The notes beneath the pieces are model-generated. The model saw only the letters and a list, made by a program, of their open reading frames with translations, did no database searches and was not told where the DNA came from. From contig NZ_JAVLAS010000001.1 of assembly GCF_032190635.1 (NCBI RefSeq), positions 124,001 through 188,000 on the forward strand: a stretch of 64,000 nucleotides of DNA, written 5' to 3'. The position numbers and the translations under genes were made by a program. This DNA comes from Levilactobacillus zymae (GTDB taxonomy: Bacteria > Bacillota > Bacilli > Lactobacillales > Lactobacillaceae). Shown here in pieces: positions 18,678-44,800 of this stretch; position 1 is the first letter of the stretch; each line of letters begins with the position of its first letter.

Positions 18678-18974
18678 CTGTCTTAAAAGACTAATTTAAA
18701 ATATTCAGTGCCTCCGGGCTAACCCGGTCAGCAACGGGCGGAAACGGGTTGTGAGTGGGCACGGCTTCAAGCCCACAGTTCGGGTCTTGAAGACCGACTT
18801 GTGTCTGAGGTTCGAGCTGGCAAGAAACACCAGCCAACACAAGCCCATTTCCCTCCTGAGCCCATTTCTGACTGTCCCTCCAGCTCACATGAGTTATAAC
18901 AATAACTAAACTGGGCTCTTTTCGGCAAAGGGTAATGAATGGTCGGTTAAATCGGTGATTGAGTTTTAAGACAG
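18678..18974 (-). mobile_element. MITE-like structured element, copy A (complete, with terminal inverted repeats)
   Basis: The ends are perfect 11-bp inverted repeats, CTGTCTTAAAA (18678-18688) and TTTTAAGACAG (18964-18974). Read on the minus strand, it shares TATAACTCATGTGAGCTGGAG, GGCTCAGG and CTTGAAGCCGTGCCCAC with copy D at 44.6 kb and the same three-stem fold as copies B, C and D. It has no transposase gene. An ORF through it (18691-18888) has no good RBS and shares VPTHNPFPP with an equally spurious ORF in copy C, so both reflect the repeat. Flanks TTAG and CTAG leave the target duplication unclear. Confidence 0.75.
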
Positions 18975-18999
18975 GTCCTAGTTAAATCGATTATAATCT

Positions 19000-19054
19000 T
19001 TGACAAAAGATAAGTCTATCTCTTATAATAAGTTCAATTAAAAGATAGACTTAT
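19000..19054 (+). promoter_or_regulatory. Promoter of the NmrA-like gene with two TetR-type operators
   Basis: TTGACA (19000-19005), 18 bases, TATAAT (19024-19029). The spacer holds AGATAAGTCTATCT (AGATA/TATCT arms), and AGATAGACTTATAT lies at 19043-19056. Together ATAAGTCTATCT and AGATAGACTTAT are a perfect 12-bp inverted pair. This is a textbook place for repression, most likely by the TetR protein encoded at 18058-18648. Confidence 0.7.
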
Positions 19055-19079
19055 ATTTTATAAAAAGGAAGCCTTACTC

Positions 19080-19967
19080 ATGAAAATCGTTTTAACCGGT
19101 TCTTTGGGTCACATCAACGCCCCCCTCGTTCAACAACTCATCGCCGCGCACCACACCGTCACCGTGATTAGTCACAACCCGCAACGCCAAGCGGCCATTA
19201 CCGCGTTAGGGGCCATCCCCGCTATCGGGAGCATCACCGACCAAGCCTTCCTGACCCGCACCTTCACCGGGGCCGACGCGGTTTATTTGATGATTACCAG
19301 TGCCACGGGCGGTGACGACCTCTTTGCCGCCGGTCGTCAGCAGGCCACCGTTTACGCGAATGCCGTCCGAGCTGCGGGGGTCACTCGCGTGGTTAACCTC
19401 AGTAGCGTCGGGGCTAACCTCGGGCCCGAGGTGGGGTCCCTCCACATTTACAACGTGATTGAAGGCGTCTTGACTCGCCAGTTACCCGGCGTGAACCTGA
19501 CCTTCATTCGTCCGACCGGCATGTTTTACAACCTCTTCAGTCATCTCACCAGCATCCGTCAACACCACGCCATCTACACCAATAGTCAGCTCGACCAGCG
19601 GAACTCTTGGGTGGCGCCTGCCGACATCGCTCCCGTAGTGGCCCAAGCCCTCACGGCGCCGCAACCCGGCGTCACCAGTCAGTACGTTGCCAGTGATGAA
19701 CGGAGCTTCACCGAAGTGGCCGCCACGCTAAGCACCGCGCTCAAGCTGCCGGACCTTCAAGCCGTCCAAATTAGTGACGCCACCATGCTGGCTAACCTCA
19801 TTCAAGCCGGAATGCCTACTGAATTTGCAACCCAGTACGTTAAGACCACCGCCTACGAGCGCGACCACGACTTCTACGCCGACTATCAAGCGCACCATCC
19901 TGTCCTGGGTCCGACCAAACTAAGCGATTTTGCTCAGGAATTTGCCCAGGTCTACGCCCAACAGTAA
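19080..19967 (+). CDS. NmrA/NAD(P)-binding oxidoreductase (QOR2-like)
   Basis: A 295-residue atypical short-chain dehydrogenase. It opens MKIVLTGSLGHINAPLVQQL, a diverged Rossmann motif, and has AVYLMITSATGGDDL, RVVNLSSVGANLG, TFIRPTGMFYNLF and the conserved WVAPADIAPV. The family includes NADPH:quinone reductases and redox-sensing NmrA proteins. AAGGA precedes the ATG. The promoter has two operator-like dyads. Expression is likely induced by the ligand of the neighbouring TetR protein, possibly a reactive electrophile or quinone; the ligand is inference. Confidence 0.85.
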   Translation: MKIVLTGSLGHINAPLVQQLIAAHHTVTVISHNPQRQAAITALGAIPAIGSITDQAFLTRTFTGADAVYLMITSATGGDDLFAAGRQQATVYANAVRAAGVTRVVNLSSVGANLGPEVGSLHIYNVIEGVLTRQLPGVNLTFIRPTGMFYNLFSHLTSIRQHHAIYTNSQLDQRNSWVAPADIAPVVAQALTAPQPGVTSQYVASDERSFTEVAATLSTALKLPDLQAVQISDATMLANLIQAGMPTEFATQYVKTTAYERDHDFYADYQAHHPVLGPTKLSDFAQEFAQVYAQQ

Positions 19968-19969
19968 TC

Positions 19970-20012
19970 AAAAAGCTCAGTTTCACCCTAATAGCGCGGT
20001 GGCTGAGCTTTT
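19970..20012 (+). terminator. Terminator of the NmrA-like gene
   Basis: AAAAAGCTCAG and CTGAGCTTTTC with a long loop that carries a smaller stem. Confidence 0.75.
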
Positions 20013-20121
20013 CTGATTCCTTGAGTGAATTACCCTGCCCAATTTCCAGCCACCAGTAGCGGCCGTTTCCTCTCAGGGCTTATACTTAAACCAGCATCTG
20101 GACAGAAGGAGTTTGATAACT

Positions 20122-20907
20122 ATGAAATTTATGACTAGCGACCACGTCCGCCTCGACTACAGCGATACCGCTACCGCCGGGCAACCCGTGGTCTTACTCA
20201 CCGGGATCGGCGGCGCCAAGGAAATCTGGGCCGACCAAATCACCTGGCTGAACGCCCACGGCTACCGGGTCTTGGCCCTTGACGCCCGCAACCAGGGTGC
20301 CTCGCAACACACCGTTAAGGGCCGGCGAATGACCCGCCACGCCTTAGACCTGCACGACTTCATCACCCAGTTAGGACTCGATCACCCGCTATTGATAGGT
20401 AACTCGATGGGCGCCGCCACGCTGTGGGCCTACGTGTCCCTGTTTGGTGACGCCGATTTAGCCGGTCTCGTGGACGTCGATCAGAGTCCCAAGATGATCA
20501 ACGACGACACCTGGGCCTTCGGCTTTACCGACCTGACCTGGGACACCTTCCCCACCCTGTTGAAGTTCCCGCTGGGCTCGGCGACCTTCACCCACATCGC
20601 CGACGCGACTTACGCGGACGTCAAAAAGGCTGAGGCCGGTCACCCTTACGATGCCGAACTCAACCTGCCGTTCCTATTAGATCACGCGTTTCAGGATTGG
20701 CGCGATATCGTCGCGCTTCTCCACGTACCCTTTTTAATTATTGCTGGCGAAAAATCTCCCTATTTTAATCCGCAATTTGCGGCGGTCACGGCCAACCTCG
20801 CCGCCAACGGCCACAGTGTGGTCATCCCCAATAGCGGCCACATCGTGATGGCCGAACAACCCGCAGCCTTTAATCAAGCGCTAGGGGATTTCCTGCAAAC
20901 GCTCTAA
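20122..20907 (+). CDS. Alpha/beta hydrolase
   Basis: A 261-residue serine hydrolase. The nucleophile elbow is GNSMG with Ser near residue 95, the oxyanion strand is VVLLTGIGG, the acid probably lies in the FLIIAGEKSPYF region and the catalytic His is in NSGHIVMAEQP. Substrate unknown. ATG at 20122 follows AAGGAG; a TTG three codons earlier is less likely. The 3' end overlaps the convergent citI-like gene by four bases, leaving no room for a terminator between them. Confidence 0.88.
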   Translation: MKFMTSDHVRLDYSDTATAGQPVVLLTGIGGAKEIWADQITWLNAHGYRVLALDARNQGASQHTVKGRRMTRHALDLHDFITQLGLDHPLLIGNSMGAATLWAYVSLFGDADLAGLVDVDQSPKMINDDTWAFGFTDLTWDTFPTLLKFPLGSATFTHIADATYADVKKAEAGHPYDAELNLPFLLDHAFQDWRDIVALLHVPFLIIAGEKSPYFNPQFAAVTANLAANGHSVVIPNSGHIVMAEQPAAFNQALGDFLQTL

Positions 20908-21848
20908 ACGTCGGCCGCCAAGATCCGTTGGGCAATCGCCTCGTTTAAGACGATGTCCGTGACTAATTTACCGCGTAAGGCACCCAGGGCCGCGTCCGTC
21001 TTAAACTTGTTACGGATCACCCCCAACCGGCGTGGCGTCCGCAAGACCTGGCTGACCGGCAGCCCGACCGTCTTATCGTCCCCCTGGTTTAAGAAGCGCC
21101 CGTTAAGATCATACGGCCGCCCATACAGGATACCGGCGATGCGGTCGGCGGGAACGTTGGGAAAGATGGTGCCGTAGTGTTCCTGCCAGATGGGAATCGA
21201 TTCGATGGACGCCAGCGTCCCAAACCCACAGAACAGGGCATCCATCTGAGCCGCTTGGGTAAAGGCCGGCTTGAGCGCCGGTTCTTGGGGCAAAGCCGCA
21301 CGAATCTGATCGTTAATCACGTACAGTGGGCTGGCCAGCGTCACGTAATGACTGCCACACCGTGCCGCGGCCTTTTCCACCATTTGGCGGGAACCGGCCA
21401 CCGAGCTGTACTTCATGTTGTCGCCGACGAACTGGGTAAACGTCAGGTCGTTTCTGACCTTGCTGTTCAGTTGGTCGATGATGCTAAAGACCGTGCTGCC
21501 CCACGCCACCCCAACCACGTGGGCGTGCTCGATCAGCGTCTGGACCTGCATCGCCGCATATTGCACAATGTTGTTGGCGTCTTCCGCCGGGTTTTCGGCG
21601 TTAAACAGGATGGCCACGTTGGGAATGCCAAAGCGCCGTTTGAATTCGGCTTCGAGGGCCACGTTCCGGGCGATCGGGTCGTTGACGGAAATGGTGACCA
21701 CCCCGCTCTTCAAGGCCTCATCCAGGTGTTTAGTGATTAAATAACGACTTAAATGGTACTTAGTGGATAAATCGGCAATCGAGAGCCGGGACAGATAGTA
21801 GTCCTGGGCAATCAAGGCCAACAACTTCTGGTGCGAAATATCGTCCAT
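20904..21848 (-). CDS. citI: SorC-family transcriptional regulator, CitI-like
   Basis: A 314-residue SorC/DeoR-type regulator with an N-terminal HTH (LSIADLSTKYHLSRYLITKHLDEA, about residues 19-42) and a C-terminal sugar-phosphate-isomerase-like effector domain (VVGVAWGSTVFSIIDQL, FVGDNMKYSSVAGSRQMVEKAA). In Weissella the CitI activator of this family responds to citrate and sits divergent to citM, exactly as here. It is therefore the likely activator of the citrate genes. The symbol rests on family and context, not on a tested function. Confidence 0.8.
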   Translation of the reverse strand: MDDISHQKLLALIAQDYYLSRLSIADLSTKYHLSRYLITKHLDEALKSGVVTISVNDPIARNVALEAEFKRRFGIPNVAILFNAENPAEDANNIVQYAAMQVQTLIEHAHVVGVAWGSTVFSIIDQLNSKVRNDLTFTQFVGDNMKYSSVAGSRQMVEKAAARCGSHYVTLASPLYVINDQIRAALPQEPALKPAFTQAAQMDALFCGFGTLASIESIPIWQEHYGTIFPNVPADRIAGILYGRPYDLNGRFLNQGDDKTVGLPVSQVLRTPRRLGVIRNKFKTDAALGALRGKLVTDIVLNEAIAQRILAADV

Positions 21849-21913
21849 GTGGCGTTTCCTCCTACGCGAATTTTAGCTTATAAGTTGATTTTACCACAGA
21901 ATGTGTTTTGACA

Positions 21914-21965
21914 AATGCAAAAATAATCAGTATTTTTTGAATTTTTTAAAAAATCGGCGTATGCT
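21914..21965 (+). promoter_or_regulatory. citM promoter with the shared AT-rich motif
   Basis: TTGAAT (21937-21942), 17 bases, TATGCT (21960-21965). The spacer TTTTTAAAAAATC and the upstream AAAAATAATCA recur at the citD and dehydrogenase promoters. The divergent citI start lies about 90 bases away, so this is the probable CitI operator region. Confidence 0.65.
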
Positions 21966-22002
21966 AGATAGGAGTTAAAATTCGGAAAGAAGGACGTCAG
22001 AT

Positions 22003-23157
22003 ATGGCTGATTTAAAGGAAATCATCAAATTACACGAACGCGCAACGGGGGTCTTGGATATCAGTTCCGAACTTCCCGTTAAGAACGCGACCGATCTCGG
22101 TAAAGCCTACACGCCTGGCGTCGCCGGTATCTCGAAATTAATCGCCGCCCAACCTGACATGAAACGCAAATTGACCCTTAGTGGTAAGTTGGTGGCCGTG
22201 GTCACCGACGGCTCCGCAGTCTTAGGTCTCGGTAACATCGGTCCAGCCGGGGGCCTTCCCGTGGTTGAAGGTAAGTCGTTACTCTATAAGGACTTAGCGG
22301 GCGTCAACGCCCTACCCATCGCTGTCGACCAGGTGCCCGTCGACGAATTCGTCGCGACCATTAAAAACACGGCGAAGAGTTTTGCCGGGATCCACTTGGA
22401 AGACATCGCGGCACCACGCTGTTTTGAAATCGAAGATAAATTGAAACAGGCCCTCGACATTCCCGTCTACCACGACGACCAGGAAGGTACCGCCATCGTG
22501 GTTCTGGCCGGCCTGATCAACGCCGCTAAGGTAGCGGGTAAGGCCTTAGCCGACCTCAAAGTTGTGGTCAACGGTGTCGGCGCTTCCGGCATCGCCACGG
22601 CCAAGCTCCTTTACGCCGCGGGGATTCATCACCTGACCTTGGTCGATAAGCTCGGCCTAGTGACGCCCGATGATACTGACTACAACGCCTACCAACGCGG
22701 CTTGGCCCAACAGGTCGGGGAAACTCGTGCGGCTAAGACGCCGTTGGCGGACGTGATGACCAACCAAGACGCCTTTATCGGCTTGTCCGACGCCCACGTC
22801 TTGACCGGCGCCGACGTCGACCACATGGCCGCCAACCCGATCATCTTTGCGCTGGCTAACCCGGTTCCCGAAATCGACCCGCAGGAGGCCCACGACCACC
22901 ACGTCGGGGTCATGGCCACCGGGTCGAGTCAGTATCCTAACCAGGTCAACAATATTCTGGTCTTCCCCGGTTTGTTCTCCGGCCTGTTAGCGTCCGGCTT
23001 GACCGCCGTGAACGCCGACCTGGAAGCCAGCGTGGCGCACGCCTTAGCGGGTATGATCGCTCAACCAACCGCCGATAAGATTATCCCTAGCGTCTTCGAT
23101 GACGGTGTCGTATCTACGGTCACCGCCGCGGTCGAAGCGTTTGCGCAAAAAGACTAA
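22003..23157 (+). CDS. citM: Malic enzyme-family oxaloacetate decarboxylase, CitM-like
   Basis: A 384-residue short malic-enzyme family protein. It has YTPGVAGISKLI, the Mg/substrate region NIGPAGGLPVVEGKSLLYKDLAGVNALPI as adjacent motifs, LEDIAAPRCFEIE, DDQEGTAIV and a Rossmann motif VNGVGASGIATAKLL. In lactic acid bacteria the member encoded in cit operons, CitM, decarboxylates oxaloacetate to pyruvate. True malic enzyme activity on malate is an alternative. A good AGAAGGA RBS precedes the ATG. It is the first gene of the rightward arm citM-citC-citX-citG. Confidence 0.9.
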   Translation: MADLKEIIKLHERATGVLDISSELPVKNATDLGKAYTPGVAGISKLIAAQPDMKRKLTLSGKLVAVVTDGSAVLGLGNIGPAGGLPVVEGKSLLYKDLAGVNALPIAVDQVPVDEFVATIKNTAKSFAGIHLEDIAAPRCFEIEDKLKQALDIPVYHDDQEGTAIVVLAGLINAAKVAGKALADLKVVVNGVGASGIATAKLLYAAGIHHLTLVDKLGLVTPDDTDYNAYQRGLAQQVGETRAAKTPLADVMTNQDAFIGLSDAHVLTGADVDHMAANPIIFALANPVPEIDPQEAHDHHVGVMATGSSQYPNQVNNILVFPGLFSGLLASGLTAVNADLEASVAHALAGMIAQPTADKIIPSVFDDGVVSTVTAAVEAFAQKD

Positions 23158-23226
23158 CCTCATCGTCTTGCAGCAGGCGACTAATTTTTAATAACTAACT
23201 ATTTCTTTTAGAAAGGGGCTTGCCCG

Positions 23227-24282
23227 ATGCAACCCGAGATCATTGACCTGTATTTAAGCGACGCCGCCACCCGTAAGCAGTGGCAAGGCCTGCTCACCGA
23301 CCTGGGCATCACCAACTTCGCCGCCAGCGAAACGGCCCACCTGGACCACACCGTCGGCATCTACGAAGGAGACAAGCTGGTCGCCACCGGTTCCACGGCC
23401 GGCAACGTCATCAAGTACGTGGGGGCCTGCCACAAGAACAGCGAGGCCGGGGCCTACTTCAACGCCATCATTTCTGCGCTACTAAACGACCTCGCCCAAC
23501 GCCAAATCTTCCACGTTTTCGTCTTCACCAAGCCGAAATACGTGGCCAGCTTCGAATACGTCGGCTTCCACGCTTTGGCTCAGACCGACAGCGGCGCCAT
23601 CCTGGAAACCGGCGATACCGGTGTGCAGGACTACGTGGCCGCCCTCCCCAAGATCGAGCACCAAGACCAGGCAACCGTCGCCGGTATCGTGATGAACGCC
23701 AACCCGTTCACCCTGGGCCACCGCTACCTGATTGAAACCGCCGCTCAGGAAAACGACCTGGTCTACGTCTTCGTGGTCAATACCGACGCGTCGCTCTTTA
23801 CTACGGCCGAACGCCAGCAACTGGTCACGGCCGGCACCGCCGATTTACCCAACGTGCGCGTGGTCAACGGCAGCGACTACATGGTCAGTTATGCGACTTT
23901 TCCGGCCTACTTTTTGCCCACGCCGGAAGCCGCGATTCGGTTCCAAACGCAACTGGACGCTCAACTGTTCAAGACGCAGATTGCCCAGCCGCTAAACCTG
24001 ACCACCCGCTACCTAGGCAGCGAACCGTTCTCCAAAACCACGGGCATCTACAACCACGTCTTACAGGAAATCTTGCCACCGGCAGTCGCCGTGAAGATCG
24101 TTGACCGCAAAACCGTTGACGACCAGCCCATTACGGCTACGGCGGTCCGGCAAGCCATCGCGGACGATGCCATCGATACCGTAGCGGCTAGCTTACCGGC
24201 CACCACGTTACAGTTCATTCAAGCTCACCTGCCGATGCTGCAGGCCCGGATCAAGGCCGGCCAACGCATCGCTGGGAACTAA
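23227..24282 (+). CDS. citC: [Citrate (pro-3S)-lyase] ligase
   Basis: CitC activates citrate lyase by acetylating the prosthetic group on CitD at the cost of ATP. The 351-residue protein has an N-terminal GNAT-like domain (residues 1-140), then the nucleotidyl-transferase motif NPFTLGHRYLIE around residues 159-170, and a C-terminal ITATAVRQAI matching the ISSTxxR-type motif. AGAAAGGGG precedes the ATG. It follows citM by 69 bases and precedes citX by 17. Confidence 0.95.
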   Translation: MQPEIIDLYLSDAATRKQWQGLLTDLGITNFAASETAHLDHTVGIYEGDKLVATGSTAGNVIKYVGACHKNSEAGAYFNAIISALLNDLAQRQIFHVFVFTKPKYVASFEYVGFHALAQTDSGAILETGDTGVQDYVAALPKIEHQDQATVAGIVMNANPFTLGHRYLIETAAQENDLVYVFVVNTDASLFTTAERQQLVTAGTADLPNVRVVNGSDYMVSYATFPAYFLPTPEAAIRFQTQLDAQLFKTQIAQPLNLTTRYLGSEPFSKTTGIYNHVLQEILPPAVAVKIVDRKTVDDQPITATAVRQAIADDAIDTVAASLPATTLQFIQAHLPMLQARIKAGQRIAGN

Positions 24283-24299
24283 GAAAGGAAGTTTTGGTG

Positions 24300-24857
24300 A
24301 TGCCTAACGCCACCTTTGCCACCGGGGACCCGCAAGACATCCCCGCCATTCTCGCCAACAAGGATCATCGTGCGGCCCTGCAACACCACCTGGTCACTAC
24401 CTATCCGGACCAGGCCGTTTTGGCATTAAAACTCAACATCCCCGGCCCCATCAAAAACAACGCTCGGTTAACGGCCACGTTTAACGCCGGACTGGCCGCC
24501 TTTGACCAGGTCTTACATGACCACCAGCTAGCCTACCAATTGGTCGAGCAATGGGATCACCCGACCGGCCCAGAAGCCTTTCTGCGCAGTCCCGCCGCGG
24601 CGACCACGTTGAAGGCCGTCGCCGTTAACTTCGAGGATCACCACCCGCTAGGTCGGCTCTTCGACATCGACGTGTTGACCAGCCAACAGCCCGGCCCCCT
24701 GAGTCGCCAAGACAGCGGCTTACCGGTGCGGCGCTGCTTTATCTGTGACCAACCGGCCAAGGTCTGCGCCCGGTCGCGGGCCCACAGCGTCGCCGAGTTA
24801 CAGGCGGCCATCGATCACACCATCACTGCCTACTTTGACGAACAGGAGACCGACTAA
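24300..24857 (+). CDS. citX: Apo-citrate lyase phosphoribosyl-dephospho-CoA transferase
   Basis: CitX transfers the phosphoribosyl-dephospho-CoA prosthetic group made by CitG onto the acyl carrier protein CitD. The 185-residue protein carries the family signature RRCFICDQPAKVCARSRAHS near residues 142-161. ATG at 24300 lies eight bases after AAAGGAAG; GTG and TTG codons just upstream are alternative starts. Its stop overlaps the citG start (TAATG), implying coupled translation. Here CitX and CitG are separate proteins rather than the fused form of some relatives. Confidence 0.95.
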   Translation: MPNATFATGDPQDIPAILANKDHRAALQHHLVTTYPDQAVLALKLNIPGPIKNNARLTATFNAGLAAFDQVLHDHQLAYQLVEQWDHPTGPEAFLRSPAAATTLKAVAVNFEDHHPLGRLFDIDVLTSQQPGPLSRQDSGLPVRRCFICDQPAKVCARSRAHSVAELQAAIDHTITAYFDEQETD

Positions 24858-25708
24858 TGCCCAACCGTGACCCCGCCATTTTAAACGCAACCCGGGCTCT
24901 ACTCTACGAGGTGTCCGTGACCCCCAAACCGGGGCTGGTGGACCCCGCCGACGTGGGCCCGCACCCCGACATGGACGTCTTCACCTTCATCGACAGTGCC
25001 ACGGCCCTCGAAGACTACTGGGCGACCTGCTTTGCGTTGGGCCAGGCCTTCACCGGCGCGGCGTTACCGGACCTCTTTCACCAGTTGCGGCCGGCCGGAG
25101 TCGCCGCCGAGACCGCCATGTTTCACGCGACCCACGGCGTCAACACCCACAAAGGCGCGGTCTTTTCCCTGGGCGTCATCGTGGCGGCCGCAGGGTATCA
25201 GACCCAAGCGGCACCCTACGCGACCGACCAAACTCTGGCGGTGGTCCGCGCCATGCTTGATGGTCTGACCGCTAACGACTTTGCCGGATTGGACCAGAAG
25301 CCGACCGACCAACTCACCGCCGGGGAGCGCCAGTACCTGAAGTACGGGACCACTGGCATCCGTGGCCAGGCCGAAGCGGGCTTCCCGGTGGTTGCCACCG
25401 TGAGCCTGCCCTACCTGCGTCGAAGTCACGGGACCCGAACGCAGCGCCTGTTAAACACGCTGATGACCATCGTGGCCCATACCGCCGACAGCAACCTGAT
25501 CAAGCGTGCGGGGACCGATGCCATCGTTCCTTGGGCCCAGGAAACGGCCCAGGCGATTCTGGATGCGGGCGGGTGCCAAACAACGGCCGGTCAAGCGCGT
25601 CTTACCCGGATGAATCAAACGTTTAAGGCTAAAAATCTCAGTCTGGGTGGGTCGGCCGACCTGCTGATTTTAACGATCTACTTCGGATTAATGGAACAAA
25701 TTTTTTAA
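24857..25708 (+). CDS. citG: Triphosphoribosyl-dephospho-CoA synthase
   Basis: CitG condenses ATP and dephospho-CoA to the precursor of the citrate lyase prosthetic group. The 283-residue protein shows VSVTPKPGLVDPADVGPHPDM near the start, HGVNTHKGAVFSLG in the middle and the late LSLGGSADLLILTIYF, all typical. It overlaps citX by one base and is the last gene of the rightward citrate arm, followed by a strong terminator. Confidence 0.95.
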   Translation: MPNRDPAILNATRALLYEVSVTPKPGLVDPADVGPHPDMDVFTFIDSATALEDYWATCFALGQAFTGAALPDLFHQLRPAGVAAETAMFHATHGVNTHKGAVFSLGVIVAAAGYQTQAAPYATDQTLAVVRAMLDGLTANDFAGLDQKPTDQLTAGERQYLKYGTTGIRGQAEAGFPVVATVSLPYLRRSHGTRTQRLLNTLMTIVAHTADSNLIKRAGTDAIVPWAQETAQAILDAGGCQTTAGQARLTRMNQTFKAKNLSLGGSADLLILTIYFGLMEQIF

Positions 25709-25710
25709 TC

Positions 25711-25759
25711 AAAAAATGGCCTCACCAACGGTTTTAAACCGGTTGGTGGGGTCATTTTT
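25711..25759. terminator. Terminator of the citMCXG arm
   Basis: TCACCAACGGTTT and AAACCGGTTGGTG with A and T tracts at the two ends; it could stop transcription from both sides. Confidence 0.9.
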
Positions 25760-25769
25760 AAATTGAATT

Positions 25770-26063
25770 CTAATAGCCGGCTTCATGGTACCGCCGCCCA
25801 ATTTGGCGTTCCAAGGCCAAGAGCTTTAACGGGTTCAACCGCCGCAACTGCGCGGAATCGTACCGTAAGACCAGTTGGTCGGTACCAACCACTTCGGCCA
25901 CTTGCACCCCGTTAAGGCCCAATAAGGCAGTCTGGACGGCTTGCCGCAGGGCCGGTTGGTGCGGCCACACTGCCGAGGTCAGCACCATCTGACCGTGGTC
26001 GGGGTGTTGCAACTCAATCTGATACTTTTGCAGATACCGGGCAAACAACTCTTCTGGAGCCAT
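25770..26063 (-). CDS. Hypothetical protein, 97 residues
   Basis: Not recognised. A small soluble basic protein starting MAPEELFARYLQKYQIELQ. AGGAGG lies nine bases upstream of the ATG at 26063, so the longer reading to 26123 is not preferred. The chain looks alpha/beta, with LRQAVQTALLGLNGVQVAEVVGTDQLVLRYD reading as helix, strand, strand, then a basic helix (LLALERQIGRRYHEAGY). It is a leftward gene between the two citrate arms, following a small membrane protein gene. Confidence 0.65.
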   Translation of the reverse strand: MAPEELFARYLQKYQIELQHPDHGQMVLTSAVWPHQPALRQAVQTALLGLNGVQVAEVVGTDQLVLRYDSAQLRRLNPLKLLALERQIGRRYHEAGY

Positions 26064-26131
26064 ACCGCCACCTCCTGGGATAAGTTTTGTCCTTAGTGTG
26101 CCAGAGGTGACCGTAAAACGCAATAACTAAC

Positions 26132-26599
26132 CTAGTACCGCCACCGTAACCAGGCCCGCTTCGCCCAATGTCCCGCTAGTAAGATCGGCCCCAACAGCAG
26201 CAAGATGAACGTGACCCACAGGTGCTCGCAGAACACGTAGAGGGGATTTAAGATATCGTCGGTGGTCTGCGTGTTACCGGACATATACAGCCACGGATTA
26301 GCCTGCAAGCCACTGGGCGTCCACTTGCGCGCCGTGTGGTGTTGCGAAAGGTCCCGCTCATGTAAAGCCAAGGCCCGGTTCTTATACGATTCCATTCGTT
26401 CGTCGTCCTTGCTGTACAGGTTCGCGTACCACTGCCGCAACCACGGGTAACCTGCCAACCAACTCACCACCACCCAGATGGTGAACGGCCCCACCGGCAG
26501 CTGCCAGCCCTGCGCCGTGTGCCGGAGATTCCAGGTCAACAATAGTGCCATGATGACCACGCTTTTCGCTAAATTCCAGATATATTGTCGCAACCGCAT
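26132..26599 (-). CDS. Hypothetical membrane protein, 155 residues
   Basis: Not recognised. It has about three to four hydrophobic stretches: two near the N-terminus (LAKSVVIMALLLTWNL and FTIWVVVSWLAGYPWL) and one long C-terminal stretch (FCEHLWVTFILLLLGPILLAG), with a charged central loop of about 60 residues. The start at 26599 is supported by AAAGGGCG upstream; the longer frame to 26692 starts without an RBS. It sits between LysR and the 97-residue gene, inside the citrate region but with no evident link to it. Confidence 0.65.
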   Translation of the reverse strand: MRLRQYIWNLAKSVVIMALLLTWNLRHTAQGWQLPVGPFTIWVVVSWLAGYPWLRQWYANLYSKDDERMESYKNRALALHERDLSQHHTARKWTPSGLQANPWLYMSGNTQTTDDILNPLYVFCEHLWVTFILLLLGPILLAGHWAKRAWLRWRY

Positions 26600-26690
26600 C
26601 CTATCACGCCCTTTGAAATTATCCTGATTATAGGCCACTTCCCCGAAAAAACAAGTGGCAGCCCGCGCGTCACTCCAACGTTTTCTCGTC

Positions 26691-26730
26691 AAAAAGACCG
26701 CTTACCAGCCAACGCCAGTAAACGGTCTTG
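26691..26730 (-). terminator. Terminator of the citDEF-lysR operon
   Basis: On the minus strand AAGACCG...CGGTCTT is followed by five T, 14 bases after the lysR stop. Confidence 0.8.
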
Positions 26731-26743
26731 AAACACTTTTTAA

Positions 26744-27637: not shown

Positions 27638-27667
27638 TATGCTGCCCCCATCTGCCAAACAAAGCGG

Positions 27668-30589: not shown

Positions 30590-30745
30590 CCCTCGCTTCA
30601 CTCTGCCGAGCAAGCGTCACTGTAGTGGGCACGATTCTCAAGCCTCGCCCACCCCGCGAGTCTCGAGAACTCGACCTTGATGTAAGCCGGCCCAAAACAC
30701 CGACTAACATCAATTTCACTACAGTGACGCCAGTCGGCGCCGTTT
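30590..30745 (-). repeat. Structured intergenic repeat, copy B
   Basis: Read on the minus strand it has a perfect 14-bp outer stem (GCGTCACTGTAGTG with CACTACAGTGACGC, at 30614-30627 and 30717-30730). Inside are stem 2 (TTGATGT-T-AGTCGG with CCGGCT-T-ACATCAA) and stem 3 (TTCTCGAG-A-CTCGC with GCGAG-G-CTTGAGAA), then ATCGTGCCCAC. The order and conserved links match copies A, C and D, although the stem sequences differ. Confidence 0.75.
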
Positions 30746-30844: not shown

Positions 30845-30925
30845 TTAAAACCCAATCACTGATTGTCATCAGTGCGAGCTGGAGGACCAGTTAGGAAACG
30901 CTGGATTCACCCATTTCCCCTCAGT
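30845..30925 (+). repeat. Degenerate fragment of the same repeat family (copy E)
   Basis: TATCTTAAAACCCAATCACTGATT resembles, base for base, the end of copy A next to its terminal repeat, and GAGCTGGAGGACCAGTTAGGAAA resembles copy A's GAGCTGGAGGGACAGTCAGAAA. The part between is deleted and no full fold remains. Confidence 0.5.
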
Positions 30926-36250: not shown

Positions 36251-36345
36251 GGCGCATCTTTTCAAAATAAAAAGAATTATTTGAAAGCCTAGCGCTGCAC
36301 CGCCCACTCCCTTAGGTGCCCGGTTCAATCCCTTAAACGACCGAC

Positions 36346-36376
36346 AAAAAAAGTCTGGGATGGTTTATCCCAGACT
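36346..36376 (-). terminator. Terminator of the lactate/malate dehydrogenase gene
   Basis: AGTCTGGGA with TCCCAGACT and a T tract on the minus strand, 20 bases after the stop. Confidence 0.9.
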
Positions 36377-36396
36377 CAATCATTGACTTCAATTCA

Positions 36397-37383
<987 letters not shown>

Positions 37384-37444
37384 TTAATAAGGGGTAGCCT
37401 GCGCCACCCAGTGAAGTTTATGTTCGTGTCGTAAAGTCACCCTT

Positions 37445-37510
37445 ATCATAACATGCTTTTTAAAAAATGCAATTTTTTGTGATTATTTTTAAAAATAAAA
37501 ATAATCATTT
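37445..37510 (-). promoter_or_regulatory. Dehydrogenase promoter with the shared AT-rich motif
   Basis: On the minus strand TTGCAT, 16 bases, TATGAT (37445-37472). The spacer TTTTTAAAAAGCATGT and the upstream AAAAATAATCA match the citM arrangement, pointing to joint control with the citrate genes. Confidence 0.6.
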
Positions 37511-37554
37511 TCAAAATTTCACAAGTAGTTTTGGGTCGAAACAAACAGGACCTC

Positions 37555-37655
37555 ACTCCAAACGGATAAAGTCGTAGTGGTGGTTTGCACGACTTAAGAC
37601 CGTCAAGTGTCTTTTAACCATGATATAAGCCACCCAATTGGATGAGACTATGAAC
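37555..37655 (-). repeat. Degenerate relative of the structured repeat (copy F)
   Basis: On the minus strand GGGTGGCTTATATCATGG resembles copy B's GGCCGGCTTACATCAAGG, followed by a short hairpin (AAGAC/GTCTT) and TTAAGTCGTGC as in the other copies. No long outer stem is visible. Confidence 0.4.
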
Positions 37656-37759
37656 TCGAAGATCCACTCAGGTTTACACCTTATGCCCTATTGCTAGCAG
37701 TCTCACAGTTAATATTTTCAACTTCAATCAATGGAAGATTCTGTTTAATTTCCGCTCAA

Positions 37760-37935
37760 TTTAGCCGTGAGGGCGGTCCTGAAGGGGCTCAGTGGTGTCG
37801 TTTGGGTTATTCGGGGTTCTTTCCCGGATTACCCAAAGGTCGAGCTTGAAGACCTGGTACTTTCAGGGCTTCAAGTCGTGCCCACCCACAACCCGTTTCC
37901 GCCTCTTCAGGACCAACCGGTAAGGCGGATAATTT
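37760..37935 (+). repeat. Structured intergenic repeat, copy C
   Basis: Outer stem GGTCCTGAAG (37775-37784) with CTTCAGGACC (37905-37914); stem 2 TTTGGGT-T-ATTCGGG with CCCGGAT-T-ACCCAAA; stem 3 CTTGAAG-A-CCTG with CAGG-G-CTTCAAG; then TCGTGCCCACCC. Stem 3 has its arms swapped relative to copies A and D (CTTCAAG...CTTGAAG), keeping the pairing. The ORF across it (37767-37952) is a by-product. Confidence 0.75.
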
Positions 37936-37955
37936 CCACAATCTGTGCTTAACTC

Positions 37956-37998
37956 AAAAGTGACCATGATTCCAGGTTCGGGAATCATGGTCACTTTT
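37956..37998. terminator. Terminator of pcp
   Basis: AAAAGTGACCATGATTCC and its complement form an 18-bp perfect stem with A/T tracts on both sides. It closely resembles the addBA terminator in its AAGTGACC arms. Confidence 0.88.
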
Positions 37999-38032
37999 CA
38001 TCAACTAAACGCTTTGGGGCCCGCGCTGGCAC

Positions 38033-38647
38033 TTAGATTTCATTTGCGGTCACAATGGCCCTAATTCCGGCCGTGATTCCCCGTACGGCGTCACTTAACG
38101 CCATGCTGGGAGTATTCGGCCGCTGGCTGACTTGGGCCGGTAGAAAGGGGATGTGCATGAAGCCCGCACGTAATGTCGGAAACTCGGTGGCTCGTTGATA
38201 CTGTACTTGATACATCAAATGGTTACAAACGAAGGTTCCCGCCGTGGTCGAGACCTGTGCGGGCAATCCCGCCCGTTGAATGGCGGTCACCATCGCTTTG
38301 ACCGGTAGTTGAGTAAAGTACGCCGCCGCGCCCGTGGGTTGAATGGGTTGGTCTTGGGGGCGTCGTCCGGCATTATCGGCTATCCGGGCATCATCCAAAT
38401 TAATGGCTACCCGCTCGGGCGTCAACGCCGCGCGCCCGCCGGCTTGTCCGATGTCGAGGACCACGTCGGGGTGTTCGGCCACGATGGCGGCGTGAACGAC
38501 CGCCGCACTCTGTGTAAATACCGTGGGCACCTCTAACTTGACGATGGTAGCCGTCCCAATCGTCGCGGGTAACCGCCGCACGGCTTCCCAGGCGGGATTA
38601 ACGGTCTCCTTACCAAACGGGTCAAACCCCGTCACTAATACTTTCAT
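38033..38647 (-). CDS. pcp: Pyrrolidone-carboxylate peptidase
   Basis: A cytosolic cysteine peptidase (family C15) that removes N-terminal pyroglutamate. The 204-residue protein begins [23 protein letters not shown] and has [16 protein letters not shown] (catalytic Glu), [10 protein letters not shown] (catalytic Cys) and GFMHIPFLP (catalytic His), so the full triad is present. ATG at 38647 follows AAAGGAG; seven more codons upstream lack an RBS. It is monocistronic. Confidence 0.95.
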
Positions 38648-38707
38648 CAAACCAACTCCTTTGCCCAAGTTAGCCCTAATTATAGTCGTCTAGTCATAAA
38701 TGAACAG

Positions 38708-38738
38708 ACAAAAGCAGCGTTACCATCCGGCAACGCTG
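38708..38738 (-). terminator. Terminator of the yfhO-like gene
   Basis: CAGCGTT...AACGCTG followed on the minus strand by CTTTTG; moderate T tract. Confidence 0.65.
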
Positions 38739-38786
38739 ATCCGTTCTCGCTTATTTTGCATCACGCTGGCAGCACCAGCCCCCTAG

Positions 38787-41700
38787 TTAGTCTGCTGGTC
38801 GGCGCCAATCCCACCACCAGGTCGCGCCCAGGAGGATGATTGCCCCCAGCAACGTCGCGCCCAGCCCGCCGCCAAGCCCCGGCGTGCGGTAGGTTAAGCG
38901 AATCCGATGAGTCCCGGCGGGTAACTGCGCCCCCACAAACCCGTCGTTAACCACCTGTGTTGCCGTTGGTTGCCCATCGACGGTCAACCGCCAACCGGTT
39001 GAATACGGAATCGACGTGGTCAGTACCCCGGGCCGCGTTAGGGTCAAGGTCCCGGTTACCCGATTATCGCTCACGCGCCCGTTCCGCAGTCCTCGCCGCT
39101 GGGCCGCATGGACTTGACGGTCGTACTGCGAGTTAAACGGCATCGCGATTAGTTTTACCGACTTAAAGGACAAGCGGTGGGTGGTGTTAAACGTGATGTC
39201 AACGGTCTGCCGCCGCTGCCGACTATAACCCAGGTTAAGTAGCACCCGGTGCTTGGGTTCATAATCCGACAGGTTATCAATGCCGAATTGGGAGAAGGCC
39301 TTACTCTGATTACGCGTCTTGGCCGTTACCCAATAATCCCCGAGATCGGGATTGCTGACGGCATCGCGCCAGGCATTTAACTTGGTCAGATCTGAGCGTG
39401 GGGTTAGCCCCAAGACGCTGGTATTGTCCTGTGCCTGCAATTGTTCGCGCGTCGTGAGCTTTTCGGCCTGAATGCCGTCGAGCTCTAAGTAAAGTTCGGT
39501 CCCCTGCGCGGCTTGCGGGTTAGTTAGCGTCAACGTATAGCTCAGCGGATGTCCCTGCGCATCGCTCGTCATCTGCCGCAACCCGTGACTATTGGCCTGT
39601 TGCGTCTGGTCAATGATGTGTTGATTTTGGAGGAGAACCCGCTCTAAGGCGGCCCGCCGCTTGTTCAGTTGGACCAGGGGGGCGTTGGCTTGCAGATCAC
39701 GGTCGCTTAATAAGCCGTTACTGTCGGTCTTGAGTTCCGGTTCCTGTAAGGTCGCACCAAAATTCGCCGTTTGCTTCTGATTCAAGTTACCCTTCTGTCC
39801 GGCCGTGGCCTGTTGTAACCGGTACTGCACCACCTTATTAACGCTATCGATCACCGGAACCGTGTTGGGCGTCACCGTATAATCCAGGGTCCGCTGTTCG
39901 GAGTGGTAGGTGGCTGCCGGTACCCCCGCCTGTCGCCGGGACACCACGGCAGCCTGGGTCAGGCTCCGCTCTCTGTCCGGTGCCGATAATCGTCGCCACT
40001 GGGCCTGGGTCAGCGCCCGGGGTTGGCTGTATACCAGGGGAAACGCTAAGTCCGTCGTCATCACCTGGGTGCCGGTCCCGTTGGATAACCCGTAGACGGC
40101 CCGTTCGTTAAATACCTTTTTGGCCGCGTGGTAACCATACGACGTTGCCACTTGGTTGGCTAATTGATCCTGCCGGGCAAAGAGGTACTTCACCCCTAAC
40201 AAATTCGCCATCGCCGTTCGGTTGTCGGCCTGGGTAATGGGTGAGTTCATGGCGTATTGTGAATTTTGTAAGTCCTGGCTAAATTGCCCAACATACCCGT
40301 TTTCCACCGAAAAATATGACATGATCCCGTGTAACTGATGAGCCATGGTGAAATTATTCCCCACCGTTCTAAAGAGGTTATAGTTCGGTAGGCTGCTGAC
40401 CCGGTTAAACACCCGATCGGCTTGTGGCACGGTCTGGGCACCGTCGTAGTAATCTTTTAAGTACTGGGTGGCGTCGTGGCGACGGAGCTGTTGCGTGGCC
40501 TGGGTCCCCGCGTTGGGATCGTAATACCCCCAAGCGTTCGCCACGAGATTGAGGCCCAATAATGTCCCGATTAAAACCCGGGTTATGTTCACGGGTTGTT
40601 GCCCGCTGCCCACCAAAACCGCGGCGGTTGCCAATAATAACCCATAAGTAATCAAATTACGTCCCGGGTTATCAAAGACTAACCCGTTGCTGAAATAAAC
40701 CACCACCAATAGTCCGGCGGTCGCCCCGCCTAACCAGCGGCGGTCCTTGGCCGTCAAGGTTGGCAGGTGATCCACCAGGGTCATCAACGCCAGGGTCACC
40801 GGCACGGCGGCCAACAGGAGCCAACGGTTGGACGGCGTCGAGAAGACGTTAAAGAACGCCGCTACGGCGGGAATGCCAAGCCCCAAGAGCACGAGGACCA
40901 GGGTCAGAGCCAGCCAGCGGTGCCGTTTCCAATGGACCAATACGTCAACACAACCCAGAAATCCCAGACTGCTCATGCCCAGGATGGCCCAGTAGCTCAG
41001 GACATTTCCCGTGGTCAACACAGCGTTGCCAAGCTTAAGGTAGTAACTGAACGGATAGAGCCACAGGCCATTGGCAAAGGTTGCCGCCGCCCGAGTCGAA
41101 TGTAGCATCATCAACAGCGATGGCAGCATTAAAACGCCCGCCAAGAGGGCACCACTCACCGCGGCGGCCAAACACCGCCGGACGGCACTTCCTAGGCTAA
41201 TCGCTAGCTCGCCGCTGGTCTTCAACGACCAATAACGAATCACGGCATAAATCAGGCTTCCCAAACCTAAAATGTACGCAAAGTAAAAGTTACTTAGGAT
41301 GGTTAACCCGGTCACTAAGCCTAAGAAGGTCCAGTTGCACCCGTGATAGAGCCGATCGATCCCCACTAACAGGAGCGGGAACCAAATCATTGGCAGCAAA
41401 AAGAACGGGTGGTGAACGCCGACCATTAACGAATACCCGGTAAACGCGTAGGCCACCGTGCCCAGTAACTGAGCTAACGGCGTAAAGTGGTAGCGCTTAG
41501 CCAGGGGCAGAAACGCCAAACCCGTGGCGTATAGCCGCAACACGATAAAAACACCGTAACCGGTCTCTAGAAAGCGTACCGGCAGCAGGGCCAGCACGTA
41601 GGCGAAGGGATCCCCCAGAACATAATAGGCTAATGTGGTTAACTTATCCGCCCCTAAGCCAAAGGTCCACGACCACCCGGTAACCCCTAACAACCCCTGT

Positions 41701-41876
41701 TGAGCCAACAGACGGTGCAGCTCAAGCATGACCGGATAATGCTGGGTAATCCCGTCCATATTCCAAATCAACGTCCGGTTCGCTAACGCCAAGACCCCAA
41801 AACTTAACGCCGCGATGACGCCGAATGCAAGCGTGTACACCAGTGCTAACGGCCACCGGTGATGTGCTATCTTCAT
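38787..41876 (-). CDS. YfhO family membrane protein
   Basis: A 1029-residue integral membrane protein of the YfhO family. About a dozen membrane segments fill the first 450 residues (opening with WPLALVYTLAFGVIAALSFGVLAL), a large extracellular domain of roughly 500 residues follows, and a last membrane helix near the C-terminus ends in WWDWRRPAD. Members in Listeria and Bacillus take part in glycosylation of teichoic acids outside the membrane. A role in decorating cell-wall polymer is likely but not proven. ATG at 41876 has GGGAG very close upstream; a TTG 12 codons earlier is the alternative start. Confidence 0.85.
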   Translation of the reverse strand: MKIAHHRWPLALVYTLAFGVIAALSFGVLALANRTLIWNMDGITQHYPVMLELHRLLAQQGLLGVTGWSWTFGLGADKLTTLAYYVLGDPFAYVLALLPVRFLETGYGVFIVLRLYATGLAFLPLAKRYHFTPLAQLLGTVAYAFTGYSLMVGVHHPFFLLPMIWFPLLLVGIDRLYHGCNWTFLGLVTGLTILSNFYFAYILGLGSLIYAVIRYWSLKTSGELAISLGSAVRRCLAAAVSGALLAGVLMLPSLLMMLHSTRAAATFANGLWLYPFSYYLKLGNAVLTTGNVLSYWAILGMSSLGFLGCVDVLVHWKRHRWLALTLVLVLLGLGIPAVAAFFNVFSTPSNRWLLLAAVPVTLALMTLVDHLPTLTAKDRRWLGGATAGLLVVVYFSNGLVFDNPGRNLITYGLLLATAAVLVGSGQQPVNITRVLIGTLLGLNLVANAWGYYDPNAGTQATQQLRRHDATQYLKDYYDGAQTVPQADRVFNRVSSLPNYNLFRTVGNNFTMAHQLHGIMSYFSVENGYVGQFSQDLQNSQYAMNSPITQADNRTAMANLLGVKYLFARQDQLANQVATSYGYHAAKKVFNERAVYGLSNGTGTQVMTTDLAFPLVYSQPRALTQAQWRRLSAPDRERSLTQAAVVSRRQAGVPAATYHSEQRTLDYTVTPNTVPVIDSVNKVVQYRLQQATAGQKGNLNQKQTANFGATLQEPELKTDSNGLLSDRDLQANAPLVQLNKRRAALERVLLQNQHIIDQTQQANSHGLRQMTSDAQGHPLSYTLTLTNPQAAQGTELYLELDGIQAEKLTTREQLQAQDNTSVLGLTPRSDLTKLNAWRDAVSNPDLGDYWVTAKTRNQSKAFSQFGIDNLSDYEPKHRVLLNLGYSRQRRQTVDITFNTTHRLSFKSVKLIAMPFNSQYDRQVHAAQRRGLRNGRVSDNRVTGTLTLTRPGVLTTSIPYSTGWRLTVDGQPTATQVVNDGFVGAQLPAGTHRIRLTYRTPGLGGGLGATLLGAIILLGATWWWDWRRPAD

Positions 41877-42063
41877 TTTCTCCCGAACCCCCAATATTTT
41901 AACCGGTTTCAAAATCTTCTAATCTCAATGTACAAAGCTAACCAGTCGGTGTCAAACCCTTTTCGACGAACTTCTCCTGACGACTTTGCCAAAGCGTACG
42001 TTTTGCGCTACTCTTATAAAGGTTTTCTAAAAACTGAAGTCATAGCAAAGGAAGGAATTTCTC
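41877..42063 (+). promoter_or_regulatory. Leader region of the queT-like gene
   Basis: A 187-base gap between divergent genes. AAGGAAGG eight bases before GTG at 42064 is the RBS. I looked for preQ1 riboswitch cores (types I and II), common before queT genes, and found no convincing match. Confidence 0.35.
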
Positions 42064-42585
42064 GTGAATTCTAAGAAAAGTTTTTTAGGGATCGATAGCC
42101 CCCGCGACATGGTGCTAGCGGCCCTAGTTGCTGCCCTCTACGTCGTGGTTACGATGGCCTTGCCAGCCCTAAGCTATGGTGTTGTTCAGGTTCGTTTCTC
42201 CGAAATGTTCAACCACCTAGTCAGTTTTAACCGGCGTTACATCGTCGCGGTCACGCTGGGCGTCTTTGTCGCTAACATCTTTGGATCCTCGCTGGGTCTC
42301 CTCGACGTGGTGACCGGGACCACCCAAACCTTACTGGCCTTACTGGTCATGTACTGGTTGGGACGTTACGTCCCTAATAAGATCGGCAAGCTGATTCTCA
42401 ACACGGTCGTGGCCGTCTTCTTCATGTGCATGATTGCCTGGGAATTCGCCTTTATCGCCAAAACAGCCTTCTGGCCAACCTTTTGGGCCAACTGGTTATC
42501 CATCGGTGCCGGCGAACTCGCCAGCATGGTGGTCGGCGGGATCATTATTTACCTGCTCAGTCTTAAAATCGATTTTACCAAGTAA
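42064..42585 (+). CDS. queT: QueT family ECF transporter substrate-binding component
   Basis: A 173-residue membrane protein with about six hydrophobic segments, of the QueT family (substrate component of energy-coupling factor transporters, predicted for queuosine precursors). Family features include SPRDMVLAALVAALYVV, VQVRFSEMFNHL and FGSSLGLLDVVTGTTQTLLA. It starts with GTG after AAGGAAGG. The shared energising EcfAAT module is not encoded in this window. Confidence 0.9.
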   Translation: MNSKKSFLGIDSPRDMVLAALVAALYVVVTMALPALSYGVVQVRFSEMFNHLVSFNRRYIVAVTLGVFVANIFGSSLGLLDVVTGTTQTLLALLVMYWLGRYVPNKIGKLILNTVVAVFFMCMIAWEFAFIAKTAFWPTFWANWLSIGAGELASMVVGGIIIYLLSLKIDFTK

Positions 42586-42588
42586 CCG

Positions 42589-42619
42589 AAAACGGCGGCC
42601 AGTTGGTCGCCGTTTTTTT
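42589..42619. terminator. Terminator between queT and the DUF2207 gene
   Basis: AAAACGGCGGCC-AGTT-GGTCGCCGTTTTTTT; arms allow termination on both strands. Confidence 0.9.
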
Positions 42620-42631
42620 GATATTTGGTGA

Positions 42632-44443
42632 TTAAAACGCCCCGCCACCGGAGCCGCCACCGAAACCACCCGAACTACCGCCGGAAAAACCGCCGGAGCC
42701 GCCCGTGGTGGAACTAGCGCTCCCCGAAACTTGAAGTGAGCCGGAAATTCCAGAATTAATCGCGTCCCCAAAATCGGCCAAGCCGTAGTTACCGGTACCG
42801 ATATAGAAACCGACAAATCCGGCCGCTAGGGCATCGGCGCCGAAGTCGACCTTTAGTTTAGCGATGACCTGCTTGGACAGCCCGAACGCCGCGGCGTAGG
42901 GTAGGATATCTTCCCACAGGATCAGGTCGCCAATTTGAGCGGTGTCGAAGTGACCAATGTCCTTTAACATCCGGCGAAAACCGCCGATGTCGTTGACCAG
43001 GATCAACCCAGCCGCGTTATTGCGGTCGATATGCTGGCGCAGTCGCCACACGCTGACCCACAAAACGATGAGGCCCAGGCCACTCAGGCCGGTCACCCAA
43101 GCGCCCACGGTGGCGTTAACCACCCAGCTCACCCCGGCCGTTAAGACCAGGAGAAGGGTCAACCGCAAGCCGCGCGTCAGATATCGTTGGCGCAGTGCCA
43201 CGTTATCGGCGTCTTGATAGGGCTCAACGTCGCGGTTGACCTCTTCTTGCCACTGGTGGAACCACTGGCCGAGGCGGCCCTGTTGGTCCTTTTTTCCGTA
43301 CTGTTTCAAATCAGCCAACGTAAACGAACCGTCCTGGCCGATGGTTTGAAAGCAGTGGGTCAAAAACGAATTATCCAGGTCGGCCTTGCGCGTCAACCGC
43401 ATGGTCTGGTGCCGCCCCTGCTTTTCGGCGGTCAGGCTCAGCTGCCGCCGACTCGCCGCCCGCAAGATTTCTCCGGTCAGCGCGTTGGTGTTCGGCGCCG
43501 CTTCGTCCACTAACGACTCCGCTACGGCCGGGGCCACGGTGGGCACGTCAAATGAGTGTGGAATCGGAATGGGGTGCGGGTAGCGGTTGCCCGGATGGCG
43601 GCGGAACCACCGGACGTCCAGCCCCGCAACGATCAGGGTCGCCGCTACCAGTACAGCCAAGCTCCCGCCCACTAACCAGCGTTGCCGCTGGCGTTTGGCG
43701 TTAGCCTGTTGGGCCAGCTGCGCCTCTTGCCGTTGGACGGCGGCCTTTTTCTTCTGCGCCACGCGTGGTGCTAGTGGTGTCACGCTGGTGGGAAACAGCA
43801 GCTGACTTTCGACGGCCGTTTGCGCGGCGACCTGTGGCACGGTCAGGATGACCCGGCCGCGTTGCCGGTCGACCTGGGTGTGCCCCGTCAGTGGACCGTG
43901 CGTCCAAGCCTGCAGCTGGGTAATCCGTGTGGCCGGCAGTTGCAGGGTCACTTTAACCTGACGCAACGGGACTTCCCAGCCGGTCCCAATCACCTTCCAA
44001 TTCAGTTCGGCGGTGTCGGTGTAGTTCGTGACCACGCCGGTTAGTGCCAGGTGATACGTGACCCGCAAGGTATCCCCGTCCGTGACCGGCCGGTAGACCT
44101 TAGCCTTCAGGCGCGCCGCTGATTGGGTCAACTGATAAGTATTGGTCGCCCCCGTCGTTGCGGCGGAAACGGTCCGCGGCGTCTGGCCATTCAGTTGGGC
44201 GATCACCCCCGTCAAACGGCCACCCTTGATTCCCCGTAAGTCTTGGACCACGAAGACGCCGTGGTAGTCATCGTCGAACCGATAAGTCACGTGTTGCGTG
44301 AGAGTCGCGTTCCCGTTTTTATGTATGTCAATCTGGGTTCGATACGCCGCAATCTGATAGTCGGCGTGGGCGGTCACGGGAGATAGATTCCCCACCACGA
44401 CCAGTCCCAACAGAACCCAGCCCCAGTACCAACGCTGTCGCAT
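42632..44443 (-). CDS. DUF2207 domain-containing membrane protein
   Basis: A 603-residue surface-exposed membrane protein. It has a signal peptide (WGWVLLGLVVVGNLSPVTAHA), an extracellular DUF2207 domain (QIAAYRTQIDIHKNGNATLTQHVTY onward, residues 30-220), a transmembrane helix near residue 260, an intracellular part, two more helices around 440-480, and a glycine/serine-rich tail ending SSGGFGGGSGGGAF. The function of this family is not known. AGGAGGGG precedes the ATG. It is monocistronic, converging on queT. Confidence 0.88.
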   Translation of the reverse strand: MRQRWYWGWVLLGLVVVGNLSPVTAHADYQIAAYRTQIDIHKNGNATLTQHVTYRFDDDYHGVFVVQDLRGIKGGRLTGVIAQLNGQTPRTVSAATTGATNTYQLTQSAARLKAKVYRPVTDGDTLRVTYHLALTGVVTNYTDTAELNWKVIGTGWEVPLRQVKVTLQLPATRITQLQAWTHGPLTGHTQVDRQRGRVILTVPQVAAQTAVESQLLFPTSVTPLAPRVAQKKKAAVQRQEAQLAQQANAKRQRQRWLVGGSLAVLVAATLIVAGLDVRWFRRHPGNRYPHPIPIPHSFDVPTVAPAVAESLVDEAAPNTNALTGEILRAASRRQLSLTAEKQGRHQTMRLTRKADLDNSFLTHCFQTIGQDGSFTLADLKQYGKKDQQGRLGQWFHQWQEEVNRDVEPYQDADNVALRQRYLTRGLRLTLLLVLTAGVSWVVNATVGAWVTGLSGLGLIVLWVSVWRLRQHIDRNNAAGLILVNDIGGFRRMLKDIGHFDTAQIGDLILWEDILPYAAAFGLSKQVIAKLKVDFGADALAAGFVGFYIGTGNYGLADFGDAINSGISGSLQVSGSASSTTGGSGGFSGGSSGGFGGGSGGGAF

Positions 44444-44550
44444 GTTAGCCCCTCCTCCATTCGCGTTTAGGCATCAACAATCCCTATCAGTGTAGCATAG
44501 GTCACCCGCCGCCGCTCAGAAACTATACACTAGTGACTTATGATTGACTA

Positions 44551-44800
44551 GGGCCTGTCTTAAAAAACCAAACCCTAATTTAAATAACCATCTGTTACCT
44601 AGCTAGTTGAAAAAATATAGTTCATTTTTTATAACTCATGTAAGCCGGAGAGCCAGTCAGAAATAGGCTCAGGGGTGTCGTTTGTGTTGGTCGGCGTTTT
44701 TTGTCGACCTAGACAAAGGTCGATCTTCAAGACCTGGTCTGCGGGCTTGAAGTCGTGCCCACCCCGTTCCAGCCCGTTTCTGACTGGTTCGGAGGCGATG
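44551..44800 (+). mobile_element. MITE-like structured element, copy D
   Basis: It starts GGGCCTGTCTTAAAA, the same terminal sequence as copy A, and shares TATAACTCATGTAAGCCGGAG with it. Outer stem CCAGTCAGAAA (44653-44663) pairs with TTTCTGACTGG (44777-44787); stem 2 pairs TTTGTGTTGGTCG with CGACCTAGACAAA; stem 3 pairs CTTCAAGACC with GGGCTTGAAG. I find no right-hand terminal repeat, so the right end is probably lost. Confidence 0.7.

Follow-up and report, generated by a model that had tools for sequence, protein, structure and literature searches.

A covarying three-way-junction element dispersed in Lactobacillaceae genomes and its probable kinship to L. plantarum supermotifs

The closest described relatives of the element studied here are probably the 'L. 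plantarum supermotifs' (LPSM), a name that reportedly goes back to Wels et al. 2009 (J Bacteriol 191:3420). According to the passage of a citing paper that describes them (PMC5643018), LPSMs are 800-1000 nt long, multi-copy, stable, transcribed and intergenic, adopt a cruciform and are apparently specific to L. plantarum. Four copies (A, B, C and D) of a structured repeat are present in the window, a stretch of 64,000 nucleotides from a Levilactobacillus genome (G000; assembly GCF_032190635.1, contig NZ_JAVLAS010000001.1, positions 124,001 to 188,000). A preliminary description of this stretch saw in them a dispersed family with a covarying three-stem fold, an observation that is real and stronger than first claimed. 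Our findings lead us to favour, as the probable explanation, a mobile structured element of the LPSM family, which occurs in many genera of the Lactobacillaceae and whose folded arm is selected on one strand, most likely as RNA.

The stem-3 pattern occurs at 27 places in the genome, 24 of which we took as the element; the other three (L019, L028, L030) were dropped by eye as chance matches and are also absent from the model search described below. Eighteen of the 24 copies were aligned under a hand-drawn structure of 54 pairs, the consensus being a three-way junction, and served to build a covariance model (R1) that includes C and D and excludes A and B; left out were A, four B-type copies including B, and L013, which is near-identical to L018. 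Each row forms 48-53 of the 54 pairs and 94.4% of cells pair, a figure biased towards the drawn structure because the latter was drawn from one of the aligned sequences. Among these 18 mutually related rows, two-sided changes are seen at 27 of 54 pairs as against 8.7 +/- 2.2 in shuffles (none of 500 reaches 27) and as against 5-7 pairs when partners are slid by 1-3 columns. Covariation, first proposed from four copies, is thus present in a larger alignment, too.

Within the window, sequence and R1 matches confirm all four copies at the places and on the strands first assigned to them (Table 1), with A and B being detected though held out of the model; the next two rows of the search lie at E = 1 and 3.7. 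The letters originally given for the outer stems of B, C and D are correct; by eye, A, B, C and D have the A-G mismatch, and B, C and D also have the T-T mismatch. Two details required amendment. Stem 3 of C, said to be swapped (CTTGAAG/CTTCAAG rather than CTTCAAG/CTTGAAG), has the letters reported, yet this is the flip of a single base pair (C-G to G-C) and not a whole swap, since CTTNAAG is near-identical in both directions. Similarly, the range originally given for A exceeds its fold and instead describes a unit between inverted repeats that resembles a miniature inverted-repeat transposable element (MITE). On energy folding, each of the four forms a long outer stem enclosing hairpins (the minimum-energy fold of A deviating in detail from the three-way junction), and the sense strand is more stable than the antisense strand in 4/4. 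As a separate observation, two insertions around stem 2 (5', GGGC-type; 3', CTCGAA-type) are variously combined in A, L010, L011, L012, L027, L014 and L029, as if copies recombine among themselves.

Retained mismatches add to the covariation. Across 138 matches from many genera aligned to R1 (142 minus four opposite-strand echoes), the stem-3 A-G mismatch is kept in 135 of the 135 that have letters there and the stem-2 T-T mismatch in 123 of 137 scorable ones. This bears on an explanation that sees the copies as a selfish MITE family, whose stems stay alike through gene conversion between copies and templated (quasi-palindrome) repair, the fold itself not being selected. Multiple copies, gain and loss between species and mosaic copies would all fit such a family, and repair that takes one strand of a stem as the template for its partner would yield two-sided changes; it should, however, also erase the mismatches, and the inequality of G-U and A-C cells (see below) requires a strand-specific force. 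To our minds, this scenario is unlikely, and quasi-palindrome repair as the sole cause was rejected in view of the retained mismatches.

As for the strand, non-standard cells over the 138 matches are G-U in 279 and A-C in 75 cases, and 37 columns are richer in G-U compared with 5 richer in A-C, although this alignment, being fitted to the model, is biased towards G-U. In a MAFFT alignment, which is free of that bias, the counts are 57 and 11 (14 versus 5 pair columns). It follows from the excess of G-U over A-C that the strand as drawn is the acting strand. This test is compatible with RNA and single-stranded DNA alike, which sequence alone cannot separate, and being blind to the difference it leaves room for a fold that acts as DNA, namely a cruciform or single-stranded hairpin that would serve a transposase, relaxase or recombinase as its recognition site and have no role as RNA. 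Mobile behaviour of the copies and the long inverted terminal repeats of paired units (see below) would suit this option, while the roughly 3.7-fold excess of G-U over A-C is what RNA would show. The latter argument is tempered by G-T being a milder mismatch in DNA, too. Against a pure DNA role also speaks that LPSMs are reported as transcribed in the citing passage (PMC5643018), and we regard it as possible, albeit rather improbable.

Selection on structure can also be followed between species. Thirteen comparisons, some of which have members in common, were made between elements that occupy corresponding loci in different species. Of 36 two-sided changes, 34 preserve pairing, while one-sided changes keep pairing in 27 cases, gain or lose it in 30 and leave positions unpaired in 3. 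The former indicates constraint, and the 30 gains or losses indicate drift or decay; the most diverged matching-locus pairs (L024/L107, L056/L132) may alternatively have arisen where another copy took the place of the original one. Taken together, two-sided changes, retained mismatches and pairing-preserving changes between species support the original proposal that structure is under selection.

The family extends well beyond the window. Further copies, anticipated by the preliminary description, were found by covariance-model search in other Lactobacillaceae and in the genome itself, which holds 38 copies (41 R1 rows less three opposite-strand echoes). In the genus Levilactobacillus, 33 of 35 genomes have R1 matches, this one included, and two (G021, G031) have none. 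Surveys of the family and the order, in which seven candidates per genome were scored and sensitivity is limited accordingly, gave matches in 113 of 397 Lactobacillaceae genomes (14 of 40 sampled genera) and in 24 of 395 genomes of the order, all 24 within the same family; at this limited sensitivity, no sampled genome outside the family matched, nor did R1 match any of 23 genomes from other families of the order. We found an exact 21-base core in 50 stretches, which come from L. zymae, L. spicheri, L. acidifarinae, L. paucivorans, others, and Lacticaseibacillus.

A different arrangement emerges in G304, a genome from another genus of the Lactobacillaceae. Its 52 R1 matches make up 24 pairs and 4 solos, and all 24 pairs stand back to back with their elements 236-478 nt apart. 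Near-perfect inverted repeats of 16-32 nt close 18 of the 20 pairs that were fetched, the units spanning 747-989 nt, while the other two (L200, L201) have short repeats only; the closing ends differ between copies (AAAACGTGCC, AAAAGGTGCC, AAAACATGCC, AAAAGGTTCC), each variant being matched by its own partner. Three units folded on both strands (-285 to -317 kcal/mol) form the closing stem and both arms, hence a cruciform. Going by the description of LPSMs in the citing paper, the element probably belongs to the LPSM kind, with LPSMs looking like pairs of such arms. The window copies most likely represent single arms of a supermotif that has been described before, though little studied, and whose range our data widen to many genera. 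The preliminary statement that no named element matches therefore holds for Rfam and probably fails otherwise, a relative being apparently in print.

The histories of individual loci are in keeping with paired ancestry for at least one of them. Synteny of B, C and D was searched in six genomes (G004, G005, G006, G013, G022 and G024), two of which, L. zymae (G005) and L. acidifarinae (G013), were compared site by site. In L. zymae (G005), all three are missing, the sites measuring 90, 64 and 17 bp as against 351, 533 and 339 bp in the window, and an outer fragment of B remains; as judged from the sequence, B is lost there and not gained. L. acidifarinae has B and D and lacks the unit that contains C. 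Its B locus carries a full arm in opposite direction next to B, of which apparently only the first ~34 bases are left in the window (by eye), a stump too short for the model and not recovered by R1. Since B thus lies beside a partner arm or its apparent stump in both genomes, the B locus formerly held two arms standing back to back. The stretch that separates them resembles, by eye, the left end of the MITE-like copies (TGTCTTAAAAC), which suggests an origin of the latter from one half of such a pair. Copy D has its arm in common with L. acidifarinae, where the upstream sequence is unrelated (window 44501-44643 versus L258).

Mobility is also suggested by the inverted ends (CTAGGGTCTGTCTTAAAA). 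They are strong in 6 of 30 tested copies and marginal in A, whose ends (L059) score 11 against 10 for the best shuffle, marginal when taken alone, although the same ends recur in other copies. C and B are without MITE-like ends and D has the left one only, no right end having been found for it. Sharp-ended, near-identical units of ~290 bp stand at different places in this genome and in L. zymae, and of 18 end matches in this genome, 17 have an element no more than 300 bp away; the remaining one, a lone GGGCCTGTCTTAAAA at G000:C1:2154490-2154504, has no element nearby. From an empty-site view, B, C and D are missing from L. zymae, but the junctions are not clean. Flanks of the MITE-like copy L032 are not conserved in relatives. 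To its right lies a tandemly repetitive stretch (G000:C1:703992-705087) with scattered matches in many relatives.

How these parts may fit together can be envisaged as follows. An older form would be a unit of 0.7-1.0 kb in which a central stretch lies between two three-way-junction arms set back to back; a terminal stem would close the unit, and the whole would fold as a cruciform. Most of the copies that survive in this Levilactobacillus are single arms, and some of these, having inverted ends of their own, may have spread as MITE-like units that were presumably moved by a transposase in trans. Selection would act on the folded arm and on one strand, most likely as transcribed RNA, and internal loop, mismatches and junction together may form a binding surface. 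A more far-reaching version sees a family-wide, mobile three-way-junction non-coding RNA, whose fold is needed, via a dedicated protein, for spread and activity in trans, each genome having ~10-60 copies, either solo or paired back to back, and the closing ends co-evolving within every copy rather than being those of one transposase; we offer it tentatively, as a conjecture more apt to be wrong than right.

Several points weigh against the mobile, RNA-acting element that we favour. Since B, C and D are missing from L. zymae, single copies are dispensable. In most of the solo copies tested, inverted ends are unrecognisable (none was found in 23 of the 30 tested copies), and neither a parent transposase nor a longer unit with MITE-like ends was found in this genome, to which the search was confined. 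The two strands of the G304 units fold with similar energies, so the pair is without an obvious sense strand. Transcription in Levilactobacillus, a binding partner, a transposase and a function are steps we infer, and the link to LPSMs draws on the description in the citing passage together with the G304 genome; recA primers for L. plantarum matched none of 21 genomes tested from the genus of G304 and, in a separate test, none of 19 genomes.

Gene context was profiled for 30 of the 38 copies. Of these, 27 are clear of any open reading frame of at least 100 amino acids, and three reach just into the beginning of one. The orientations of neighbouring genes are unbiased (++ 10, -- 7, +- 6, -+ 6, one undetermined), on which ground a cis-regulatory leader was rejected. 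A and B do lie upstream of a same-strand gene, which would suit a role in cis on adjoining genes, as leader (riboswitch, attenuator) or terminator; C and D, however, are antisense to both neighbours and no Rfam family matches, which makes such a role very improbable. Immediately 3' of C, a strong two-way terminator-like hairpin is found at 37957-38000. Rfam models gave no match in the window at gathering score, the best permissive match for A being tRNA-Sec (20.6 bits versus a gathering score of 47), nor any match on the element at six related loci, where the sole match is a T-box away from it; the comparison with Rfam that the preliminary description had called for thus yields no family for the element.

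A plasmid or phage source was considered and rejected for a 307-bp query around copy L020 of this genome, which has no match in the plasmid or phage collection; B and the C unit have none among plasmids. A G304 pair matches 27 plasmid records (19 Lactiplantibacillus, 7 Ligilactobacillus, 1 Pediococcus). The three opened (L209, L210, L211; from L. pentosus, Ligilactobacillus salivarius and L. plantarum) each have an R1 match and no annotated feature beneath the blast match. The pair itself has no phage match and a pattern derived from it no match among viral contigs. The L. plantarum plasmid also carries a T-box leader (L211:6868-7082, minus), which is unrelated to the element.

Table 1. Element copies and associated features in the window
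Feature	Position	Strand	Description	Basis
Copy A	18716-18879	minus	three-way-junction arm, enlarged stem 2	R1 match (E 5.1e-15), fold
MITE-like unit around A	18678-18974	minus	inverted repeats CTGTCTTAAAA/TTTTAAGACAG at its bounds	
Copy B	30602-30737	minus	diverged arm type	R1 match (E 5.4e-13), fold
Apparent stump of lost partner arm	30867-30900	plus	5' end, facing away from B	by eye versus L. acidifarinae
Copy C	37769-37924	plus	three-way-junction arm	R1 match (E 4.7e-23, C in model), fold
Repeated unit containing C	37543-37957	plus		similar ends in other genomes
Copy D, arm	44649-44795	plus		R1 match (E 6.7e-32, D in model), sequence, fold
Copy D, stem 1	44650-44677 with 44760-44790	plus		
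Copy D, stem 2	44681-44717	plus		
Copy D, stem 3	44718-44759	plus		
Copy D, left inverted-repeat end	44551-44565	plus	GGGCCTGTCTTAAAA, upstream of arm	

The structured element described here covaries strongly, has no Rfam match here and reaches dozens of copies in single genomes of many lactobacilli. With an arm model, a paired unit and loci that correspond between named species, direct tests of its transcription, its partner protein and its movement are possible. A literature search for such lactobacillal repeats, MITEs or intergenic small RNAs gave, among the papers listed, no report beyond LPSM, the sole likely relative that we found in print. The element resembles LPSMs in being multi-copy, intergenic and strongly folded, and the G304 pairs agree with them in size (18 of 20) and, for the three folded, in cruciform form. 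It differs in that window copies are single arms of ~140-165 nt, outside the LPSM size range, which fold as one arm each (the B locus having formerly had two) and some of which have other inverted ends, and in that the family spans 14 of 40 sampled genera, far wider than the one species the citing passage quotes for LPSMs. BOX, RUP, ERIC, REP/REPIN and bacterial MITEs are likewise short, non-coding and dispersed between genes, with inverted ends in some copies. What sets the present element apart from these is covariation in every main stem, conserved mismatches and a strand preference, together with a back-to-back unit whose closing ends are specific to each copy and yet match.

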